Source: Desulfoscipio geothermicus | GTDB lineage: Bacteria > Bacillota > Desulfotomaculia > Desulfotomaculales > Desulfallaceae | Assembly: GCA_016841205.1 (NCBI GenBank) | Contig: JAENZP010000002.1 | Location: forward strand, 186,001-250,000 | Direction: 5' to 3' | DNA: 64,000 bases | In this document: positions 51,682 to 63,171 of the stretch, one piece after another | Position numbering within the stretch: the stretch's first letter is position 1 | Layout of the letters: each line of letters starts with the position of its first letter | Notes under the pieces: generated by a model | The model's database searches: none | What the model was told of the DNA's origin: nothing | Seen by the model: the letters and a program-made list of their open reading frames with translations, nothing else | Made by a program: the position numbers and the translations under genes

Positions 51682-51779
51682 ATGCTTAAACCTCCATTTC
51701 ATTACATTTATATAACTTATTAAGTAATGTCAGCAAATACTACGTGTTTTTTACTTTCATTTTACCACAGCATAAGAAA

Positions 51780-51801
51780 CCCTCCTCCCAAAGGAAGAGG
51801 G
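51780..51801 (-). terminator. Terminator-like hairpin after the hairpin array
   Basis: On the minus strand CCCTCTTCC and GGGAGGAGGG form a GC-rich stem with one mismatch and a 4-nt loop, followed by TTTCTTATG. It would end a transcript coming through thiC and the array at 51810-52228. Confidence 0.6.
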
Positions 51802-51809
51802 TCTCTATG

Positions 51810-52228
51810 TTATAAGCCCGTAATGACCTTCGCTACGACTATTACGCGTATCTACGTAGCCCATGACAATCTTTCGACTGCCATGAACCATTACGACACC
51901 CGCAATAATCTTTGCTCGACTATTATGGATACCTGATGAGCCTGCACCAATCTCTCGACTGATACAAACCCAAACAAAATTTAATTAAATTTTTCGGCAC
52001 CCATAATAATCTTAGCTCGACCGATAAACATCCCTTACGACCATATGACAATCTTTAGGACTGCCATACAGCCTGCCGGAACATTTACCGATCTGCCCGC
52101 CGGCTAATACCGAGCCTGTTTGACCCGATATTAACCTTTGGCCGACTGTTACAAAGCCTTGCGACCTTGTAACAATCTTGGCTCGGCCATTACGAACCTT
52201 ACGATAGTTATTATGACCTGATAATGAA
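51810..52228 (-). ncRNA. Tandem array of ~10 RNA hairpins, ~41-nt period (unknown)
   Basis: Between thiC and upp lies 419 nt with no coding frame. Hairpin centres are near 51833, 51874, 51914, 51955, 52015, 52056, 52097, 52140, 52181 and 52218, so steps are about 41 nt, except one 60-nt step with an A+T insert and a short last step. On the minus strand (the thiC strand) the units share AGTCGAGCAAAGATT-like cores: AGTC and GATT pair, closed by GAAA or GAGA tetraloops or a 5-7-nt loop. Outer stems change in sequence but keep pairing: CATGGCAGTC/GATTGTCATG, TATGGCAGTC/GATTGTCATA, GTAATGGCC/GATTGTTAC, AATAGTC/GATTATT. Linkers also share GTCGTAAGG or CAGGCTC words. This compensatory change argues for a structured RNA. 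I know no described family of this form. Confidence 0.65.
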
Positions 52229-52258
52229 CAATTATAAGTGGAATATTATTGAAATTTT

Positions 52259-53599: not shown

Positions 53600-53633
53600 C
53601 AAAAAACGCACCATGTAAGTCAGGTGCGCTTTT
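53600..53633 (-). terminator. Attenuator terminator of the thiC riboswitch
   Basis: GCGCACC and GGTGCG (53628-53623 and 53612-53607 on the minus strand) form a stem followed by TTTTTT, between the TPP aptamer and the thiC ribosome site. TPP binding would favour it. Confidence 0.85.
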
Positions 53634-53642
53634 TTCACTATA

Positions 53643-53727
53643 CCTTCCCTACGCGGGCATTACCCCGATCAGGTTCATGGGTCAGGACTCAAAAGCCCTT
53701 TCTCAGCCCATAACATGAGCTCCCCAA
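53643..53727 (-). promoter_or_regulatory. TPP riboswitch (THI element)
   Basis: The minus strand contains, in order, GGGGAGC, GGGCTGAGA, an ACCCATGAACCTGATC segment, GGGTAATGCC and CGCGTAGGGAA, the conserved parts of the thiamine pyrophosphate aptamer. Helices P1-P5 can be drawn. A terminator follows, so control is by premature termination of thiC. Confidence 0.95.
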
Positions 53728-54124
53728 ATTTTTATTTAGTTATATGTAATTAAATTTAGCATTTCTTTAATGTACCAGATGTTTATCCCTTACGCGATCC
53801 ATATTTACCACCTGGTATTTCTATAACTATAGTGTAGCACTTATCTAATTACAGAACAAGGGTTAGACCACCGGTAACCTACCTCAGTAATTATCGCTTA
53901 ATATCTCCGGCAACTCCCGGCGGGAAGGGCGCTTACTACGCCTCCTTAGGTGGTATTAATGAGACATGGGCAGACATGGGGACTTTTTGTTTAATAATAG
54001 TGAGGTAGATAATAAAAACAAGTGATATAGGAATTTACCATTATGTCGAGAGGTACAGACCAGAAACTAATTTTTTGTGATGGGGATTTTGTGATGAGAA
54101 TAATGAAATAAAAGGATTATCTCA
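53728..54124. other. Intergenic region with a possible structured element
   Basis: No gene. At 53867-53954, ACCACC and GGTGGT close an 88-nt stretch that contains CCGG/CCGG and GGCG/CGCC short hairpins. The remainder up to 54124 has several open but start-less frames and no recognisable product. Confidence 0.35.
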
Positions 54125-54671: not shown

Positions 54672-54682
54672 ACAGCAAAATA

Positions 54683-54780
54683 AAGCTCAATTCTCCTTTC
54701 CACAATGGGAGGCACAATAGTTTCCCCATGCACCCTAAAGGCCGGGCAACCATACCTTTGGCTAAGGTCACCGAGCTCAG
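54683..54780 (-). promoter_or_regulatory. Moco/Tuco-type riboswitch, copy 1
   Basis: Minus strand: GAGCTC (P1), GGTATGGTTGCC, CCTTTAGGGT, GGGGAAAC, GTGCCTCCCATTGTGGAAAG and closing GAGCTT. The same blocks in the same order occur in copy 2 (55985-56087) in front of tupA. The GGTTGCC, GGGAAAC, GCCTCCC and GGAAAG blocks correspond to the molybdenum/tungsten cofactor aptamer as I recall it. Two copies in one locus, one before a tungstate-binding protein, strengthen the call. Confidence 0.78.
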
Positions 54781-54881
54781 AGATTTGATTTATGTATATT
54801 CTTATGACTGACGTGGTTAAACAGAAATATAGCAAAGAGTGATTGGTAATTAGGCCTTACTACCGCTTAGGAGTGGGAAAT

Positions 54882-55943: not shown

Positions 55944-55982
55944 AAAGTCCTGCATTGCTCCAAAAGAAGAACGCAGGACTTT
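55944..55982 (-). terminator. Attenuator terminator of riboswitch copy 2
   Basis: AAAGTCCTGC and GCAGGACTTT (10 bp, perfect) are followed on the minus strand by TATTTTTTATA. Placed between aptamer and tupA. Confidence 0.88.
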
Positions 55983-55984
55983 AA

Positions 55985-56087
55985 GCTTCTCTTCTTTCCG
56001 CAATGGGAGGCATGTGGGTTTCCCGACATACCCTAAGGGTCGGCAACCATAACATTAACGTTTAAGGCATGCCCGACTCGAAGAGCT
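55985..56087 (-). promoter_or_regulatory. Moco/Tuco-type riboswitch, copy 2 (tupA leader)
   Basis: Minus strand: GCTCTTC (P1), GGTTGCC, CCTTAGGGTA, GGGAAAC, GCCTCCCATTGCGGAAAG and closing GAAGAG. It is nearly the same in its core as copy 1, with changed but still pairing outer stem. Followed by a strong terminator, so ligand presence likely stops tupA transcription. Confidence 0.82.
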
Positions 56088-56204
56088 ATTTTTTTAATTA
56101 AATATAATATACCTTAGGAGGTGTGGATATGCAATACTGAATAATCTTTGCTTGTCTTAAAATATTATTTTAGTAACTTATTTTTAAATAACCTTCCCCT
56201 GTTG

Positions 56205-61452: not shown

Positions 61453-63171
61453 TTAAAATAAAAAGTACCTCTGGGCTAAAGAAAGTGTTTGCATAGGTTC
61501 ACAGGTTAAATGTTCCCCGTCGACTCTCACTTCGTATGTTTCGGGATCTACTTCGATGTCAGGCGTGGCGTTATTTAAAACCATATCTTTCTTCGTCACA
61601 TTTCTGCAGCCTATCACCGGTACAACTTGCTTTTGAAGTTTTAATTCTTGAAGAGCTCCCGATTCCAGCGCCGCCTTGGATACAAAGGTCAGACATGAGC
61701 TATAAATGGCCCGGCCCAGAGCGCCAAACATGTTCCGATAAATTACCGGTTGCGGTGTAGGTATTGACGCGTTGGCATCTCCCATTTTACTGGCGATTAT
61801 AAAGCCTCCCTTAATAATCATCTCCGGTTTAACCCCAAACATAGCCGGTTTCCATAATACCACATCAGCAAGCTTGCCTTTTTCCAAAGAACCTACATAA
61901 TTAGCTATGCCATGTGTCAATGCGGGATTAATCGTGTATTTGGCTACGTATCTTTTTACACGGAAGTTATCATTTTGATCACTATCCTCAGGTAACGGGC
62001 CTCTTTGTTTTTTCATTTTGTCGGCGGTCTGCCAGGTTCTGATAATAACCTCGCCAACTCTGCCCATAGCCTGAGAATCGGAACTAATCATGCTGAATAC
62101 GCCTAGATCATGCAAAATATCTTCGGCAGCGATAGTTTCCGGCCGTATTCTCGAGTCGGCAAAGGCAACATCTTCGGCCACCTTGCTGTCCAGGTGGTGA
62201 CAAACCATCAGCATATCCAAATGTTCGTCAATCGTGTTAACGGTAAAAGGCATGGTCGGGTTTGTGGAAGAAGGCAGCACATTCGGTTGCGCGGCAATCT
62301 TGATGATGTCGGGCGCATGCCCGCCGCCGGCGCCTTCCGTATGATAAGTATGAATTACCCTGCCGTTAATGGCTCGAATGGTATCTTCAACAAAACCTGC
62401 TTCGTTTAATGTATCGGTATGGATGGCAACTTGCACATCATACATGTCCGCTACCTGTAAGCATGTATCTATGGCTTGCGGTGTTGTTCCCCAGTCTTCA
62501 TGCAATTTAAGCCCTATCGCTCCCGCTTCAACCTGCTCAGCCAGCGGCCCCGCAAAGGATGCATTGCCCTTGCCTAAAAAGCCAAGATTCATGGGTAAAC
62601 TCTCCGCAGCTTCCAGCATTCTATGAATATTAAAACTGCCGGGTGTGCATGTGGTGGCGTTGGTGCCGTCAGCCGGTCCCGTTCCTCCGCCAAGCATGGT
62701 CGTAATTCCGCTGTATAACGCTGTTTCAACCTGCTGCGGGCAAATGAAATGAATATGCGTGTCAATACCGCCCGGCGTGGCTATGAGCCCTTCGCCGGCT
62801 ATTACTTCCGTCGAGGCGCCGATAACTAAATCCGGCGCTACACCGTCCATTACATCCTGATTTCCCGACTTGCCGATACGGACAATTTTGCCGTCCCGAA
62901 TACCGATATCGCCTTTCACTATCCCCCATGAATCAATTACGACGACATTGGTGATAACCAAATCTAAAGCACCATCTTGCCTAGCCGCCGACGAAGATTG
63001 ACCCATGCCGTCCCGGATTGACTTGCCGCCTCCGAACTTGCATTCATCTCCGTAAACCGTAAAATCATCTTCAATCTCTATGGTTAAATCGGTATCGGCA
63101 AGTCTTATCCGATCTCCCTTTGTCGGACCGTACATGCCTGCATAATCCCGACCCGGCATTTGATAGCTCAT
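61453..63171 (-). CDS. ureC: Urease subunit alpha
   Basis: A 572-residue catalytic subunit hydrolysing urea to ammonia and CO2. The nickel ligands are complete: HIHFICPQQ (two His), the carbamylated Lys in [27 protein letters not shown] and [14 protein letters not shown] (His), and [13 protein letters not shown] (Asp). The mobile flap [14 protein letters not shown] holds the catalytic His. The ATG overlaps the ureB stop (TAATG). Confidence 0.98.

Follow-up and report, generated by a model that had tools for sequence, protein, structure and literature searches.

A widespread family of ~410-nt structured RNAs in spore-forming Bacillota with a predicted forespore-type promoter

The window, a stretch of 64,000 nucleotides from Desulfoscipio geothermicus, holds several RNA elements known to Rfam. 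A TPP riboswitch precedes thiC (53629–53736, minus strand), and two Moco riboswitches lie in a row (54677–54794 and 55975–56095, both minus strand). A match to 5_ureB_sRNA (62721–63016, plus strand; 58.2 bits against a cut-off of 40) is unexpected in this lineage and perhaps corresponds to another structured or antisense RNA.

In the region between thiC and upp, the minus strand (51810–52228) encodes a conserved structured RNA. It forms one closed branched fold of ~410 nt with nine long helices of 15–16 bp. In the closed structure, which spans minus-strand positions 52199 to 51814, the outer helix P1 encloses five arms, named P2 to P6. Arms P4 and P6 comprise two 15–16-bp segments each with a 4x4 internal loop between them, and the linkers between helices are GAGCNAAG-like. 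The features of the RNA gene are as follows:

52243–52238, minus strand: TACCAC-like box (here TTCCAC), which precedes and touches the -35-like element
52233–52238, minus strand: -35-like element CTTATA, 17 nt from CATAATA
52209–52218, minus strand: -10-like element GGTCATAATA, of forespore (sigma-F/sigma-G) type
~52202, minus strand: predicted transcription start, downstream of the -10-like element
51774–52202, minus strand: putative transcript, ~430 nt including the terminator, with both ends predicted
52185–52199, minus strand: 5′ strand of the closing helix P1, with wobble motif; 15 bp with 51814–51828
52144–52177, minus strand: P2, 15-bp hairpin with GCAA tetraloop
52102–52136, minus strand: P3, 15-bp hairpin
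52019–52093, minus strand: P4 arm, 16-bp helix, 4x4 internal loop (GGCA/GUAA) and 15-bp hairpin
51918–52011, minus strand: P5 arm, 16-bp helix around a variable short hairpin (51976–51993) and a 16-bp GAGA-tetraloop hairpin (51937–51972)
51837–51910, minus strand: P6 arm, 15-bp helix interrupted by a 1x1 mismatch, then a 4x4 internal loop (GUAA/CGUA) and a 15-bp GAAA-tetraloop hairpin
51814–51828, minus strand: 3′ strand of the closing helix P1
51776–51805, minus strand: intrinsic terminator hairpin of the RNA

The minus strand between 51770 and 52262, terminator included, folds with a minimum free energy (MFE) of -232.4 kcal/mol, as compared to -123.1 +/- 5.3 kcal/mol for 100 dinucleotide shuffles (z = -20.7); the plus strand of the same region reaches z = -2.6. 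The periodic, non-coding and base-paired element that an earlier note had described on the minus strand is therefore real and far above chance, and the palindromic words given there are found in the sequence. Formation of cruciform DNA, which had also been considered, is contradicted by the strand specificity of the pairing and by its content of ~24% G·U pairs. The proposed array of ten tandem local hairpins gives way to a global fold, which is favoured both by energy and by the covariation of its long-range pairs: when pairs are limited to a span of 50 nt, the energy is -149.1 kcal/mol instead of -203.4 kcal/mol without the limit, making local-only folding worse by ~54 kcal/mol. Three of the ten presumed hairpin centres (51874, 51955 and 52056) are indeed hairpin tips, while the remaining seven are not; 51833, 51914, 52015, 52097, 52140 and 52181 are junctions between long helices, and 52218 lies within the promoter, at its -10. 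The ~41-nt rhythm itself is genuine and arises because 15–16-nt helix strands, which mostly begin with G(A/G)U and end with (A/G)UC, are separated by short loops and linkers. A decayed gene was rejected as the source of the pattern, as no ORF of at least 80 aa lies over the RNA on either strand and base pairing is the conserved feature.

The genome of the window contains three copies of the RNA, the two others at 82% and 80% identity. BLAST matches (E <= 0.001) were found in 46 of 60 genomes, the own genome included, with one to four matches per matching genome, and an iterative profile search of the fetched loci yielded 67 distinct near-full-length copies. Two models were used across a wider range, namely R1, a covariance model of P2–P4 built from 47 sequences, and R2, which was trained on 74 phylum-wide sequences taken from R1 matches. 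Both cover the 5′ half of the RNA only, and their training sequences match them by construction; a sequence profile of the whole RNA covers nearly the full length in most fetched loci. R1 finds the RNA in 84 of the 113 class genomes and in 145 of the 398 genomes sampled across the phylum, and R2 matches 169 of these 398 genomes, representing 120 of 266 genera. In the class of a Rummeliibacillus genome (G501), 5 of 121 genomes have an R2 match, of which four reach E <= 4e-31 and the fifth 1.4e-12. Among nine genomes taken from named records, a Peptococcaceae bacterium alone had an R1 match; there was none in Thermosyntropha, a Syntrophomonadaceae bacterium, one Bacillota bacterium or the five genomes of Kurthia and Rummeliibacillus.

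Individual copies vary in their architecture. The upper hairpin of P4 is missing from two of them (L077 and L079), with the rest of the fold kept, and one locus (L011, G004:C8) carries very similar tandem copies at 986–1398 and 1494–1905, each followed by a terminator-like hairpin. Many copies show weaker second R1 matches just downstream of the main match, which suggests an internal duplication in which the 5′ half resembles the 3′ half; such a duplication is not claimed here, since the window copy has no second R2 match at E <= 1.

Rfam 15, which includes OLE, GOLLD, ROOL, raiA, 6S and CsrB, gave no match over the window RNA at the gathering cut-off and only matches of E 0.85 or worse below it, nor did it match the RNA in 20 divergent loci. 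The window RNA is thus a member of a large structured RNA family across spore-forming Bacillota that is absent from Rfam 15, in agreement with the earlier note, whose author knew of no described class of this form. Literature searches at the level of titles and abstracts brought up no paper that describes it.

The fold is strongly backed by covariation. An alignment of 61 of the 67 distinct copies (A1) has 143 consensus pairs, in which 98.2% of cells are standard pairs and 102 pairs show double compensatory changes. Not one of 500 shuffles reached any of five covariation measures, and a shift of the partner by a single column lowers pairing from 98% to about 40% (32–41% in the slid registers). 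At the phylum level, 54 of 62 pairs carry double changes and 96.5% of cells are paired. Seven distant members, folded by MFE, have arms that closely resemble one another apart from local differences. These results support selection on the RNA structure of the family, as the earlier note had suspected. Computation thus shows an autonomous RNA of ~410 nt that is placed independently, is deeply conserved with covariation and folds into a branched structure of 15–16-bp helices.

Most copies have a -10 of the form GGnCATAATA upstream, with xxATA ~17 nt before it. A TACCA(C)-like box, which is found in many copies just upstream of the -35 or touching it, is possibly a site for a regulator. Similar promoter elements lie before the SASP genes of these genomes. 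The promoter comparisons covered 55 non-redundant upstream regions from the class (65 of the 67 copies could be located) and 61 non-redundant phylum loci, at least two of which (L213 and L218) come from the class itself. A relaxed forespore-type pattern, written post hoc after viewing the upstream regions of the RNA, fits 49/55 class and 48/61 phylum copies as well as 23/27 SASP genes, and occurs in 11/254 upstream regions of other ORFs, about as often as in shuffled sequences. The strict consensus patterns fit fewer sites: 6/55 class copies, 14/61 phylum copies, 3/27 SASP genes and 0/254 other ORFs for sigma-G, and 4/55, 8/61, 1/27 and 1/254, respectively, for sigma-F. A matrix trained on SASP genes separates moderately from other ORFs (AUC 0.72 and 0.75) and does so in a shifted, odd register, which is attributed to the close relatedness of many SASP upstream regions. 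By promoter type, the RNA would hence fall within the forespore (sigma-F/sigma-G) regulon when the relaxed post hoc pattern is applied. Terminator-like hairpins with a stem of at least 8 follow 66/67 class copies and 40/68 phylum copies, as compared to 8–9% in shuffled sequences. The RNA is predicted to be a transcription unit of its own, equipped with a promoter and, in most copies, a terminator; the terminator-like hairpin noticed earlier (51805–51776) is present, and closes this unit rather than that of thiC.

The distribution of the RNA follows that of sporulation genes. SASP genes (PF00269) occur in 345 of the 398 sampled genomes, including all 169 RNA carriers, and none of the 53 genomes without PF00269 carries the RNA (Fisher p = 1.6e-14, uncorrected for kinship). 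With PF00269 as a proxy, presence is confined to endospore formers. Conversely, 176 SASP-positive genomes of the phylum sample have no detectable copy and the RNA is absent from 7 of the 9 genus g17 genomes listed, so sporulation does not require it in all cases. First neighbours were assigned from ORFs of at least 75 aa after removal of duplicate loci (122 of 128 upstream, 120 of 125 downstream). The 25 most frequent families include, upstream, SpoVT (7/122), SpoVB (3/122; one neighbour scored singly lies below NCBIfam's own cut-off) and SASP (2/122) and, downstream, SpoIVA (7/120), all given as raw counts. Most neighbours are non-sporulation genes, as expected of an independent gene, and the genomic contexts vary between genera and recur within lineages. 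Promoter type, phyletic nesting and neighbours together point to synthesis by the forespore sigma-F/sigma-G during endospore formation, and transcription in the forespore is considered very probable on these grounds.

The helices themselves are strikingly regular. With one-base bulges and 1x1 mismatches allowed, helix lengths in 132 folded copies peak at 15 bp (385 helices) and 16 bp (434 helices). The same copies contain a directional motif, G·U–N:N–U·G, on average 7.2 times per RNA (range 1–12), as compared to 1.2 for the reverse order. At three places, the flanking wobbles are kept in 69, 67, 65, 63, 66 and 67 of 74 sequences and the middle pair varies; among the 143 pairs of the class alignment, 24 are wobbles in at least 75% of copies. 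A single substitution would be enough to turn a wobble into a Watson–Crick pair, yet the wobbles are kept, which suggests that they serve recognition or packing and not stability. Conservation also extends to unpaired A's in the junctions and loops.

The best explanation for these features is a structural RNA made in the forespore and equipped with repeated docking sites, a reading that is considered reasonably probable. The RNA would be transcribed by sigma-F/sigma-G in the forespore during endospore formation and would function there, or in the spore core, as a scaffold or sink that is both rigid and multivalent. The directional motif, present roughly once per helix, would constitute a repeated docking site, at which either a single double-strand-binding protein would bind in several copies or helices would pack together with divalent ions, so that one RNA would organise or sequester about seven or eight partner copies. 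This multivalent function, drawn from the anatomy of the RNA, is put forward tentatively. CsrB/C and 6S RNA are multivalent sequestration RNAs, and their repeated or mimicking docking in a stable RNA resembles the mode proposed here. The present RNA differs from them in that its motif is a double-stranded wobble sandwich and in that it has no Rfam match.

A rather unlikely alternative dispenses with a dedicated protein partner and has the 15–16-bp rods, GNRA tetraloops and wobbles pack helices into a compact particle or homo-oligomer. The helix-length ruler, the wobble pairs at fixed places and the conserved unpaired A's would all suit such an RNA-only assembly, and G-U pairs are described as sites of minor-groove or along-groove packing and as major-groove metal-ion sites (PMC8793689). 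Precedents are provided by OLE, GOLLD and ROOL, which are reported to form homo-oligomers (PMC12286853). The present RNA is likewise large (~410 nt), branched, highly structured and non-coding; it is set apart by the missing Rfam 15 match, the uniform 15–16-bp rods, the repeated wobble motif and the forespore-type promoter. GOLLD and ROOL are also reported to occur in phages (PMC12286853), whereas the present RNA has no blastn match in the phage collection. The raiA-motif RNA, or ModT of Clostridioides difficile, is described as another widespread structured RNA of Bacillota, and here too the difference is that the present RNA matches no Rfam family.

It is improbable that the RNA is a base-pairing regulatory sRNA of late sporulation that acts on mRNAs. 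The precedent for it is Bvs196 (S357 in Bacillus subtilis), a forespore sRNA of Bacillus velezensis that is reported to depend on sigma-F/sigma-G, to have spore-resistance phenotypes and to bind two mRNAs in vitro (PMC9147052). Bvs196 has a length of 294 nt and a reported MFE of -82.3 kcal/mol, and lies between hinT and ecsA (PMC9147052). Independent transcription, forespore type and a conserved stable structure, as described for Bvs196 (PMC9147052), are shared by the present RNA, where independent transcription and the forespore type are predicted, and its terminator fits an sRNA as well. However, most of its conserved nucleotides are tied up in strong helices, and nothing resembling a long, conserved single-stranded seed was seen. 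Furthermore, none of 30 ecsB loci from Bacilli was matched by R2 even at E <= 10, a comparison of loci rather than with the Bvs196 sequence itself. Other repeats were seen in two (L242 and L243) of six ecsA-upstream regions viewed; these ATGAGGTGTnTGT and GGGGATGG repeats lie on the strand opposite ecsA, do not resemble the present RNA in sequence and presumably correspond to the Bvs196/S357 RNA.

It is just as improbable that the RNA is a vegetative housekeeping RNA transcribed by sigma-A, with a link to spores that reflects shared ancestry only. Loose sigma-A-like matches do exceed expectation in its upstream regions (21/55 in the class, 11.2 expected; 16/61 in the phylum, 10.9 expected), that is 1.5–1.9 times the shuffled level, but other ORFs show them to much the same extent (47/254 as compared to 25 in shuffled sequences). 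Far more copies conform to the forespore-type pattern, as do the SASP genes; the RNA carriers form a subset of the SASP-positive genomes, and a promoter scanner found no sigma-70 promoter where the window copy begins. The two proposals of a 3′ tail or cis-regulatory element of thiC and of a selfish REP/MITE-like hairpin repeat can practically be set aside, despite three dispersed copies in the own genome and the tandem pair in G004, because the RNA is conserved across the phylum with its own promoter and usually a terminator, stands beside many other genes in relatives with contexts that differ between genera but recur within lineages (spoVT, spoIVA), occurs at only one to four BLAST matches per matching genome, and was not found by blastn among phage or plasmid records.

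The forespore-made RNA with docking sites thus remains the preferred reading. It can be extended, with due reserve, to an ancient, phylum-wide RNA that may be an architectural component of the endospore: 15–16-bp A-form rods, each with a directional docking site, would organise a spore-core protein or the RNA itself into particles and thereby aid dormancy or resistance. The sharply defined repeated motif makes identification of a partner and structure determination directly feasible. An RNA of ~410 nt with a regular fold, whose 5′ half is detected in 169 of 398 phylum genomes and which is yet absent from Rfam 15, is noteworthy in itself. If made in the forespore, it raises the question of what role a structural RNA plays in bacterial spores and, if the proposal is true, it would join the small number of structural RNAs with a link to a programme of cell differentiation in bacteria.
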